The translations under genes and the position numbers were made by a program. From NCBI GenBank assembly GCA_947172415.1, contig OX359199.1, forward strand, positions 5,825,384-5,889,383: 64,000 bases of DNA, written 5' to 3'. The notes under the pieces were generated by a model. That model saw only the letters and a program-made list of their open reading frames with translations, had not been told where the DNA came from and did not search any database. Source of the DNA: Chondrosia reniformis. Its lineage: Eukaryota > Porifera > Demospongiae > Chondrillida > Chondrillidae. Of this stretch, positions 8,958-64,000 are shown piece after piece (position 1 is the first letter of the stretch; the number at the start of each line of letters is the position of its first letter).

Positions 8958-11900
8958 ATGAATCCTAATAAAAGAAATTGTACTATTTGGTTGACTCTCA
9001 TCCTAGTCATTCTAGCAGGATCATGCCAGGCTGCTTGTCCACCTTGTAAGTCTTCTGCACTATGCATTTAATATACATTCCAATATATATATAGTATTTT
9101 ATCACTCTATCAATGAAGGCTTAATTAAAAATCTTAAAATTCTTGCAATGTGCACATTTACTTAACAAGGCCCTCTCAAGAGCATTGTAATTATAACTTG
9201 TACTTTACATTCTTTCAATTCAAGAATCCACTTATGTCTATATGTAATTAAATTTTACATTCTCAGCTTCTAACAGAACCATTCGCTTAAACAATGGTGG
9301 TCACCCAGCACAGGGACGTGTTGCGATACTCCACGATGGAATTTGGGGCACCATCTGCGATTATAGCTGGGATATATTAGATGCTCAAGTAGTATGTAGA
9401 CAATTGGGATACGATCATGCAGTTGCTGCTACACTGTCATCAAGTTTTGGACGAGGGACAGGCAAAATTTGGCTAAGTCAAGTGGGTTGTGGAGGACATG
9501 AGTTATCGGTCGAAGAATGCTATCACCGATCCTGGGGAGATAAATATAACTGTGCTGATGACCATGCTAGAGATGCTGGTGTTGTGTGTGCAGGTATATA
9601 TTCTTCACATAACTAAACAACCATTTAAGTCATTGGAACATACGTATGCTGTTGTCTTATATACACATATTATGTTATATGTAGACATACATAGCTTGTA
9701 TTTTAAAGATACCTACATATGTATATCGTAATGGAATATATGTACACTAAAAAAACAATTAAGAACAAGTAATTTGAGTTAAAAAGCCTCATGAGGCTGC
9801 TGCCCCCCACACTGACCGCTTTGTTGCACTTATATATATGTATTTTACGTAAAGACAGATGAATGGCAGGTCTGGAGAAAGTATAGTAATCGTGTGATAA
9901 AGACCATATAGAAGTTGCATACTGAATCGAAATTAAAAATTATAATATACACATCACATCTATGTACGTATGTTTAGGCACATCATCATGTGAGGCTGCT
10001 CTGGGATGGCCCATGTTTTTTTACCTTAAATCAATTACACTTATTTAAATTATTTACCTAATATAGCAATTACCTTATTAATGTTTTTAAATATAGGAAA
10101 TGCTACTGATAACCCATATAAGATTCGACTCTTGAATGGAGCAAGTGAATCTCAGGGATTGGTGGATATTGGCTTTAGAAATGCTTGGGGATCAGTGGCC
10201 GATAACTATTGGGATAGACCAGATGGAGAGGTTGTCTGTAGGGAGCTTGGATTTGAAGGAATTCTTGCTACCACATATTCAGGAGCATTTGGTTCAGTTT
10301 ATCGGCGAAGATGGCTTCAAAATGCTCATTGTAGTGGTCAGGAACAAAGTTTCCTGAGCTGTGTCAGTGGAGGCTGGGGTTTGAGTGATAGTTCCTGGAG
10401 TGGATATGCTGGAGTCATTTGCATTGGTATGTGAGTACAAATTTCTTGTAGTTTTGCATGTTTAAGTCTTTGTTCAAAACATGATCAGAATTTGAAAAGT
10501 GCAATTGTGCTTGCTTGTGTACCTTCCTTTTTAATCCTCAGATGGCAATTATAATAATCCAAAAGTTCGGTTAATTGGTGGTGCAGGTAATCTTAGTGGA
10601 AGAGTTGAGATTGGGTTCAACACCTCTTGGGGATCTGTGTGTGATGTTGGCTGGGACATACTTGATGCTCATGTTGTATGCAGAATGCTTGGCCATCCCA
10701 AAGCACTAGCTGCCACTGTTTCATCTTCCTTTGGTGCCGGTTCTGGTAGAGTTTGGGTTTATAATGTACAATGCCATGGAGAGGAACAGAGCATTCTGAA
10801 CTGTAGACACAGTGGATTAGGAAGCCGGCATTCATCTTGTACTGCTCACTCCAAGGATGCTGGTGTGATTTGCTATGGTGTGTTGTATGTATAATCAAAA
10901 TGCTTGCGTGTTAAGTTGAAGATTAATCAGCATATAGAGTACCCTTTTATGATCATGTATGTCATTCTATTTATATTTCCTCCTTTATATTTCTCTGTCT
11001 GTCTGTGTATCTACCTATCCAAATATTCTGCAGATGGTATCTCAAGTGATATTAAAGTACGATTATCTGGGCATTCTAACAGTAGTGGCACAGTTGAACT
11101 TGGATTTTACGGTGCTTGGGGTACTATATGTCACCATAACTGGGATATTCATGATGCAAATGTGATTTGCAGAATGCTTGGTTATCCCAGAGCCATAGCT
11201 GCCCCACTTCACAGTAGTTTAGCAATTGTTTCAGGAAGAATATGGACAGATTCAGTACAGTGTAACGGTGAAGAAAAAAGCATTCTTGACTGTCAATTCT
11301 CTTCCTTTGGATCCTATTCCAGCAGCTGTAATCACTTAACTGATGCTGGTGTTGTTTGTGATGGTTAGTTTATACCAAATCAGTGTAATACATACATATG
11401 TAAGGTTTAGCATAGGATAGCTAGGGATGTAAAAGGTGCCTAGATGACTAAACTCCCAGGGTGACTGAGGAAGGATGGAATTTCCAGAAAATGATGGTAT
11501 GAAACTACATCCTGGTCCAATGCTCTATATAATCCCTACTTAGAGAGTATATATATACGTATATATACTACCGTACTCTCTGATAGGCTTTTCCTAAGTA
11601 TAATATACGTACAGTATAGTAGAATAGCCTATTCTTGTTGTATATATATTTCATATGTTTATAATTTAAAAGAATGATTTTCTCTATAATATAAAAACAT
11701 ATTTGCAGATGGTACTTCAAGTAGGTTGCAAGTTCGTTTGACTGGAGGCTCTAACAGTAGTGGCACAGTTGAACTTGGGTTTTATGGTGCTTGGGGTACC
11801 ATATGTCACCACAGCTGGGATATTCAAGATGCAAATGTAATATGTAAAATGCTTGGTTATCCCAGAGCCATAGCTGCCCCTCTTCACAGTAGTTTAGCTA

Positions 11901-62900: not shown

Positions 62901-64000
62901 TTTTTATACATTTGCAAGTTATATTTTATAATAAATTGCATGTACATTTGCATTTGCAAAATATACAGACATGGTTGTAGTGCTTTAGCTTTAGATTTTG
63001 TCTACAGAATTGAAATACGTACAGAATGATTTTTACGAATTTTGAAACAAAATTACTTTTTTATCTTTACTCTTTCAATGTTAAAGAAGGACATACGTAC
63101 AATGTCATTATAATACTACATAAGAGGGAAGATTCACATACGTATATGTACCTATAAGGAGGATGATATAATGCAATATAACCATCCATACATGCAAAGG
63201 ACTCAGATTCCTAGGGTCACTAATGAAGGGTGAAAGGAGAAAACGCCTATATCCTCATCCAAAGCTCTCACTAGGTGTAGTTCCCTAGAGGCCCTTTACT
63301 CTAAAGTAGATGTAACGTGTTCAAAAATAGTGGTGAATTCTTCATGTACTAATAGACCTCTTAAAATGTGTATATGTACATTTATAGGTGCTGATGTCAG
63401 TCTTAGACTTGCTGGTGGAACCGATGAGTCCCAAGGAAGAGTAGAAATTGGTATTGATGGTGTGTGGGGCACTATGTGTCACCTTGCCTCAAACTCTATG
63501 GACATTATTGAAGCAACAGTGATCTGTAGACAGCTTGGATATGGAAAAGCACTAGCTGCTACTTACAAATCATCATTTGGCAGTGGGTATGGCAGGGTAT
63601 GGTCAAATAATATCAACTGCTATGGTGAGGAATCATCAATTCTGGACTGCTCTGGGACATGGGGAATTGTGAGCACTTCTACCTGTAATAATCATAACGA
63701 TGATTTTGGAGTTATTTGTGGAGGTACTTAATTTTAAGTTGCAGTTAGTACTGTCTTATAAGATCTGCAATTCAGTTATAATAAAACATTATATTGTATA
63801 CATACTTTACTATTTCTCAACATGTATGTTTTTTATATTCTAGATGAAACTGATGATATTGATATCAGATTGGTGGATAGTTTTAATAACTCATATGGTC
63901 GTGTTGAAATAGGCTTCAAAGGAGCTTGGGGGAGTGTGTGTAGTGATGGTTGGGATATTGCAGATGCCCAGGTGGTCTGTCGTCAACTTGGGTTTACTAA
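59997..64000 (+). CDS. Gene C: third SRCR receptor paralogue, 5' part only
   Basis: The first coding exon 59997-60084 gives the same signal peptide as gene B with one change (LILIILA). SRCR exons: 60635-60961, 61544-61873, 61995-62330, 62473-62802, 63388-63723, and the start of another from 63844. By sequence these match SRCR 1, 2, 3, 4, 7 and 8 of gene A; the exons for SRCR 5 and 6 are absent, and the 585-bp intron 62803-63387 holds no trace of them. The exon at 63388 is 336 nt, one codon longer than its relatives. Splice sites and frames are intact up to the edge. Whether an Ig/GAIN/7TM part follows lies outside the window. Confidence 0.88.
61117..61301. mobile_element. MITE-like inverted repeat in gene C intron
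   Basis: TCATTTAATAACTATA at the left and TATAGTTATTAAATGA at the right are inverses. The pairing continues with GTAGATTTGATATACCTTGAGAG against CTCTCAAGGTACATCAAATCTGC, and inner ACCATGAAAAT against TTCATGGT. It is about 185 bp long and absent from the corresponding introns of A and B. Confidence 0.82.

Follow-up and report, generated by a model that had tools for sequence, protein, structure and literature searches.

Does a sponge chromosome encode receptors that carry a long SRCR stalk and a G-protein-coupled receptor (GPCR) core in one chain, and what would such molecules recognise? The question is raised by a 64,000-base stretch of the kidney sponge Chondrosia reniformis (the window, C11:5825384-5889383, within a 117,379,552-base assembly of 15 contigs), in which a sequence-only reading had proposed three head-to-tail genes, each joining stalk and core in a single polypeptide. 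The account of this genome in PMC12181767 gives 117.37 Mb in 14 chromosomes plus a mitochondrial genome, with chromosome 3 at 9.42 Mb and chromosome 11 at 7.63 Mb, from a curated HiFi/Hi-C assembly with a quality value (QV) of 69.8. Gene structure, domain content, tandem arrangement, the exon-number difference, conversion tracts and overall purifying selection were all computed directly.

The window holds two complete genes (A and B) and the 5' part of a third (C), all head to tail on the plus strand. Exons of gene A come from a splice-site dynamic-programming model with doubtful joints settled by eye, gene B was modelled by mapping the 43 gene A exons onto it, and gene C was completed with a further 30 kb of the same contig past the window. 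Genes A, B and C each form one open frame, across 43, 44 and 41 exons, respectively, with GT-AG at every internal junction, which bears out the proposed union of stalk and core. All 43 gene A exons are located in gene B without a frameshift and with a single in-frame difference of 45 nucleotides (in SRCR12); gene B has one extra SRCR exon relative to gene A and stays open over its 44. Phase 1-1 is found in 35 of 35 SRCR exons of the three genes, and exon phases are identical in A, B and C for the 30 exons from Ig onward. The cluster had been drawn as one span, 8958..64000; all three genes start there, but about 10.5 kb between A and B (26.1-36.6 kb) and 3.5 kb between B and C (56.5-60.0 kb) are intergenic, and gene C runs on to 76971, terminating 13 kb past the window end. 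The layout of one exon per SRCR domain is unlike that of the sponge in a survey of SRCR genes from 29 invertebrates, where mostly three exons per domain are reported for the sponge and one for the sea urchin (PMC10855680).

8958..26084, plus strand: gene A, complete coding span, 43 exons, 2686 residues, 12 SRCR domains (gene model, Pfam).
36597..56540, plus strand: gene B, complete coding span, 44 exons, 2781 residues, 13 SRCR domains (gene model, Pfam).
59997..64000, plus strand: gene C, 5' part, signal peptide and SRCR1 to part of SRCR6 (gene model, Pfam).
59997..76971 (extended window coordinates), plus strand: gene C, complete, 41 exons, 2460 residues, 10 SRCR domains.

The proteins follow a single domain order: a signal peptide, SRCR domains (12 in A, 13 in B, 10 in C), an Ig-like domain, three HRM domains, two TSP3-like loops, GAIN, GPS and a class B2 seven-helix core. 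The expected 12-13 SRCR domains per gene are thus found in A and B but not in C. The domain set proposed earlier is largely recovered in gene A, the protein in which non-SRCR domains were scanned with Pfam (B and C carry the same exons at high identity). Specifically, SRCR (PF00530; 12 stretches, E 5.5e-296), HRM (3 stretches, 2.7e-11), GAIN (PF16489, 5.1e-13), GPS (PF01825, 1.8e-10) and the seven-transmembrane (7TM) family 7tm_2 (PF00002, E 3.1e-48) pass their cut-offs, while Ig_3 (28.9 bits, cut-off 30) and TSP_3 (19.1, cut-off 25) stay below theirs and are weaker assignments. GPS is matched in B and C too, all 13 SRCR exons of gene B lie above the Pfam gathering score, and gene C shows six SRCR stretches in its window part, with SRCR7-10 also passing. 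Six cysteines are present in 31 of the 35 SRCR domains, four in SRCR2 of each gene and five in SRCR13 of gene B; the SRCR fold with six cysteines indicates SRCR group A. Likewise, the presence of GAIN, GPS and 7tm_2 indicates class B2 adhesion GPCRs. Class B1 secretin receptors possess an HRM domain without GAIN or GPS, and that class was rejected since both accompany HRM in gene A. Within the stalk of gene A, the segment from HRM1 to the first TSP3-like loop aligns with that from HRM2 to the second (23% identity over a 245-column alignment, E 9e-6) and is therefore a duplicated unit. The first of these loops reads DKDGDGIPDSLDTC, its final residues DTC being encoded by the following exon.

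8958..9045, plus strand: gene A first exon, encoding the signal peptide (read by eye); the exon is conserved in B (36597-36684) and C (59997-60084).
9267..16482, plus strand: gene A SRCR1-12, one phase 1-1 exon each (gene model, Pfam).
9267-9593, 10097-10426, 10542-10877, 11034-11363, 11709-12038 and 12399-12728, plus strand: exons of gene A SRCR1-6.
12922-13254, 13382-13705, 13886-14215, 14438-14761, 15401-15733 and 16111-16482, plus strand: exons of gene A SRCR7-12.
16979..17278, plus strand: gene A Ig-like domain, just under the Pfam cut-off (gene model, Pfam).
17421..18697, plus strand: gene A first repeat unit, with HRM1, alpha/beta module, Cys module and TSP3-like loop (gene model, Pfam).
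19019..20382, plus strand: gene A second repeat unit, with HRM2, alpha/beta module, Cys module and second TSP3-like loop (gene model).
20488..20839, plus strand: gene A HRM3, two exons (gene model, Pfam).
20946..22592, plus strand: gene A GAIN exons G1-G7 (gene model, Pfam; junction 22344/22472 selected from alternatives).
22658..22819, plus strand: gene A GPS exon, predicted cleavage HL/TSFALLVQV, cut before T (gene model, Pfam, PDB alignment).
23119..26084, plus strand: gene A seven-helix core and C-terminal tail (gene model, Pfam, PDB alignment).
36963..47085, plus strand: gene B SRCR1-13 (gene model, Pfam).
Starts at 38734, 39660, 40111 and 40582, plus strand: gene B SRCR4-7 units.
47542..53045, plus strand: gene B Ig, HRM1-3, TSP3-like loops and GAIN (exon mapping).
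53111..53272, plus strand: gene B GPS exon (exon mapping, GPS search).
53572..56540, plus strand: gene B seven-helix core and tail (exon mapping).

The junctions between stalk and core bear on whether the SRCR exons and the 7TM exons might belong to separate adjacent genes, which is very improbable. The SRCR12-Ig-HRM1 junctions are phase-compatible and stop-free in three paralogs, and identity between A and C drops just past the SRCR12 donor, from 96.0% in the exon to 55.5% in the intron (A-B stays at 94.0%). Separate genes would be in keeping with three SRCR blocks on chromosome 3 (of 10, 9 and 9 domains) that have no 7TM core of their own, and with gene models computed from genome sequence; against this, the SRCR-HRM-GPS-7TM order is repeated at diverged loci. 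Four co-oriented series with SRCR blocks of 9-10, HRM, GPS and 7TM pieces lie at C3:5.47-5.67 Mb, their core pieces about 28-60% identical to gene A per single piece, and SRCR, HRM, GPS and 7TM matches follow in order at a further locus near C11:5964200-5973130. These five further series are ordered matches rather than gene models. Because they repeat the order, the fusion is not explained by an artefact at a single place. When the signal peptide and SRCR1 of gene A are searched together, exactly three matches exceed 90% identity, those of A, B and C themselves, and the next best reaches 55% (best 150 of 796 candidates).

Genome-wide, profile matches number 92 for GPS (98 of 98 candidates), at least 95 for 7tm_2 (best 150 of 153), at least 49 for HRM (best 150 of 158) and at least 150 for SRCR (best 150 of 893). 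A positional table was built from 52 of the 150 SRCR matches, all 92 GPS, all 49 HRM and 67 7tm_2 places (65 of the 95 matches and two more), leaving out single-exon 7tm_2 loci and most second matches of one gene. In it, 62 of the 92 GPS loci have a tabulated 7tm_2 place within 3 kb downstream; 32 of these also have HRM within 12 kb upstream, and at least 9 a tabulated SRCR within 40 kb upstream, a lower bound because no C11 SRCR exon is among the matches listed and genes A, B and C themselves are missed. Separately, co-oriented clusters of SRCR and GPS exons occur at C5:4911004-4977637, C3:6337224-6417199 and C10:6565264-6595325, with HRM on C5 and C10 and no nearby 7tm_2 among the matches listed; they possibly encode SRCR-GPS proteins with another membrane part. 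The C3:6337224-6417199 cluster additionally contains a regular SRCR array with a period of about 0.54 kb.

Comparison of the three copies divides each gene into two halves. For the SRCR stalk, computed over the ten domains common to A, B and C and excluding the introns after SRCR4 (the array) and SRCR10 (the enlarged intron of B), exon and intron identities are 96.4% and 88.5% between A and B, and 94.3% and 68.6% between A and C, some stalk introns being only 50-63% identical and barely alignable. The corresponding A-B and A-C values are 97.9/95.6% and 98.6/94.2% for the segment labelled Ig to x5, 99.7/98.5% and 98.0/93.9% from HRM3 to GPS, and 98.8/95.5% and 97.3/93.0% from the transmembrane (TM) region to the C-terminus. 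Stalk exons are therefore clearly more alike than stalk introns, whereas core introns are nearly as alike as core exons, so that purifying selection on the protein does not explain the likeness of the core. The closest pair shifts along the gene: at 442 three-way informative sites between Ig and the stop codon, chi-square is 158.6 with 14 degrees of freedom (p 1.4e-26, sites being treated as independent), and none of 10,000 shuffles matched any of the three longest runs. Gene conversion or unequal exchange has made the GAIN-7TM halves of the copies alike, and two tracts stand out:

21262..22671, plus strand: A-B conversion tract, 1,410 bp, identical runs of 410 and 999 bp split by one difference, exons and introns alike.
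53114..53603, plus strand: B-C conversion tract, 490 bp identical, covering the GPS exon, its intron and the start of the first transmembrane segment.

Assembly consensus errors could in principle produce identical tracts, but such an origin is unlikely because of the reported QV of 69.8. It is very improbable that the copies are haplotypes misplaced side by side. Sponge haplotypes can differ strongly, and an identity of about 94-98% across the common downstream half would suit that explanation; however, the sequences upstream of A and B share no BLASTN match of at least 300 bp at E 1e-20, introns of the SRCR half are 68-88% identical, and SRCR counts are unequal. The curated HiFi/Hi-C assembly, with its reported QV (69.8, PMC12181767), also argues for true tandem genes. 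The enlarged SRCR11-SRCR12 intron of gene B contains a foldback (inverted-repeat) element at 45208-45604 that gives the same 61-residue reading on both strands and is presumably a transposon.

The stalk varies in the number of its units and in one loop. SRCR4-like units are present in three copies in A, four in B and one in C, and since units 5 to 7 of gene B barely differ from one another, this array grew recently. Additionally, the SRCR domain adjacent to Ig, the last in each gene, has a C1-C2 loop of 24 (A), 9 (B) or 17 (C) residues between two fixed flanks, all in frame, and that of gene B is without its first cysteine.

16111-16482 (A), 46759-47085 (B) and 66904-67254 (C, extended coordinates), plus strand: Ig-adjacent SRCR with length-variable loop.

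Substitution tells a more conservative story. The ratio of nonsynonymous to synonymous change (dN/dS; Nei-Gojobori, pairwise averages that hide single sites) is 0.49 (A-B), 0.39 (A-C) and 0.38 (B-C) over the ten shared SRCR domains, 0.29-0.38 for Ig to x5, 0.09-0.21 from HRM3 to GPS and 0.12-0.23 from TM to tail, remaining below 0.5 in all four segments of all three pairs. In the SRCR domains dN is lower than dS with Fisher p of 4e-4 (A-B), 2e-9 (A-C) and 2e-9 (B-C). Within the A-B comparison, the signal peptide with SRCR1-3 gives 0.39, SRCR4-6 gives 0.23 and SRCR7-12 gives 0.69, the last not distinguishable from neutral (p 0.17); taken one at a time, neighbouring domains give values between 0.23 and 0.85, each from few changes. 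The stalk is under constraint, though weaker than that on the core, and its averages give no sign of positive selection. The notion of a variable stalk on a constant core accordingly survives for SRCR number and last-SRCR loop length, and for a core kept alike partly via conversion, but not for substitution in the ten shared domains, which is conservative in all pairs (0.38-0.49) and on average gives no sign of hypervariability.

How such a receptor might signal is suggested by its membrane-proximal part. The closest solved structures to the GPS-7TM part are ADGRD1 (8x9s, E 3.1e-49) and ADGRL3 (7wy5, 5.6e-44) in the PDB, and LTSFALLVQV of gene A pairs with LTNFAILMQV of ADGRD1 in the alignment. 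The seven-helix cores of B and C show 97-99% exon identity, and the predicted GPS cut HL/T is retained in all three genes. The usual GPS motif has four cysteines, including one after WS..G and one just before HL. Relative to that motif, the second and fourth are replaced by I and S in A, B and C alike (gene A exon 22658-22819), a pattern that would fit the joint loss of both partners of one disulfide.

The sequence is compatible with autoproteolysis and tethered-agonist signalling, both of which we infer from known adhesion GPCRs. Each gene would yield a single adhesion GPCR of about 2,460-2,780 residues whose long SRCR-Ig-HRM stalk would attach, outside the cell, to a multivalent ligand fixed on a surface, and whose GAIN domain is predicted to cut itself at HL/T. 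A pull on, or shift of, the bound stalk would then let the tethered agonist TSFALLVQV engage the seven-helix core and elicit a G-protein signal. Between copies, whole phase 1-1 exons are gained or lost, which changes the SRCR number, and gene conversion keeps the GAIN-7TM half alike. This explanation as a whole, a ligand-pulled, tethered-agonist-activated SRCR-stalk adhesion GPCR shaped by exon-number change and core conversion, appears probable. Several points weigh against it. The splice model is computational, with the GAIN junction 22344/22472 picked among alternatives as the most natural; the missing second and fourth GPS cysteines might impair the predicted cleavage, although HL/T is retained; the low overall SRCR dN/dS argues against a fast-evolving recognition role, A-B SRCR7-12 excepted; and the ligands of SRCR domains are so diverse that the domain type does not identify the one bound here.

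More tentatively, the proposed receptor may bind either microbial surfaces, a reading given a slight preference, or matrix or aggregation glycans made by the sponge itself. Recognition of microbes, or of self against non-self, is a plausible candidate role. Microbe sensing, in which SRCR domains would bind bacterial surface polymers and the GPCR would trigger phagocytosis or symbiont tolerance, is a serious candidate that falls somewhat short of even chances. One SRCR gene and one adhesion-GPCR gene are reported to respond to microbial elicitors in Aplysina aerophoba (PMC6208332), the C. reniformis metagenome is described as typical of a high-microbial-abundance sponge (PMC12181767), and loss of SRCR domains alters bacterial binding in human DMBT1 according to PMC5435793. 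However, the DMBT1 motif VEVLxxxxW (as given in PMC3100851) occurs in 0 of the 35 SRCR domains of A, B and C, and the SRCR domains are conserved overall, with no diversifying selection. The looser GRVEVxxxxxW, found in 3 of the 35, one per gene, resembles the general SRCR consensus. In Halichondria, moreover, the account in PMC8242945 names no GPCR among genes regulated by lipopolysaccharide.

A self or matrix ligand is almost as likely as a microbial one. Here the partner of the stalk would be aggregation proteoglycan or matrix made by the sponge itself, with the GPCR reporting cell contact or tension; for such self-adhesion or aggregation receptors we put the chances at roughly one in three. 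Purifying selection on the SRCR domains as a whole is more readily expected with a stable self ligand than with a microbial one that keeps changing. The sponge aggregation receptor combines SRCR with SCR (sushi) domains on a single membrane span; identity with that type was rejected, gene A having a seven-helix core and no sushi domain at E 1 in its Pfam scan. An aggregation receptor is cited among sponge SRCR proteins as polymorphic (PMC5435793), which speaks for a self ligand. Only a speculative prospect, and an unlikely one, is a full recognition system in which receptors diversify by swapping whole SRCR exons, by altering how many there are and by varying a loop in the Ig-adjacent SRCR, conversion keeps the core constant, and individuals carry different SRCR sets for symbiont or self/non-self discrimination.

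Around the cluster, positions 1-8700 hold a multi-exon gene on the minus strand, without a Pfam match for the fragments tried, and a further upstream neighbour, also on the minus strand, reads by eye like the proteasome subunit PSMC1. Four flank open-reading-frame fragments gave no Pfam match at E 0.01, and one spliced neighbour fragment none at E 0.001. The interval between A and B contains slightly more than three copies of a directly repeated unit of about 0.9 kb, at 89-92% identity (30311-33345). By eye, a minus-strand open reading frame at 35217-35642 looks like the zinc-finger C-terminus of a reverse transcriptase of LINE type; it has no Pfam match at E 0.01. Minisatellites occupy 786-1125 and 58604-59163, with units of 37/78 bp and 61 bp, and an ARAGORN tRNA at 57221-57294 with a four-base anticodon and no amino acid is probably false.

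SRCR-bearing adhesion GPCRs are already known as a concept. ADGRD1 and ADGRL3, the vertebrate receptors with the closest solved GPS-7TM cores, combine HRM and GAIN in a latrophilin-type layout and are not known to carry SRCR domains. In another demosponge, Amphimedon queenslandica, two adhesion GPCRs with a 7tm_2 core (Aq712029 and Aq715659) are described whose N-termini carry several SRCR repeats, and HRM is reported in at least eight of its adhesion GPCRs (Krishnan et al. 2014, PMC4302439); compared by domain content, the Chondrosia genes differ in that a single chain unites 10-13 SRCR, Ig, three HRM, two TSP3-like loops, GAIN and GPS, and in that they form a tandem cluster subject to conversion. 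Amphioxus, of another phylum, has adhesion GPCRs with SRCR among several novel domains, and no long SRCR array is described in that 2008 account (PMC2246102). A 2024 SRCR survey tabulates 7tm_2 among SRCR-associated domains (PMC10855680). Placozoan C-type lectin domain (CTLD) adhesion GPCRs (28 of the 36 CTLD receptors there; PMC6321704) likewise set an innate-immune-type recognition domain on an adhesion/secretin-family core in an early-branching animal, with CTLD in place of SRCR. Human DMBT1 shares the long SRCR array of varying domain number, there reported with an effect on bacterial binding (PMC5435793, PMC3100851), but has no 7TM core and varies between people rather than between paralogs. 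A DMBT1-type bacteria-binding SRCR was rejected, VEVLxxxxW having 0 matches in the A, B and C proteins.

Among the open-licence papers listed, none was found to describe this cluster, the conversion within it or receptors of this kind in Chondrosia. What this locus adds is the complete anatomy of such receptors and their tandem clustering, together with at least five further SRCR-HRM-GPS-7TM series elsewhere in the genome. The gene models, the three-copy cluster and its diverged sister cluster supply exact constructs for work on ligand, cleavage and signalling, and a locus for following variation between individuals. Sponges, which lack adaptive immunity, must distinguish food bacteria, symbionts and their own cells; in a receptor whose long scavenger-type stalk sits on the GPCR itself, a single molecule would convert binding into a signal.

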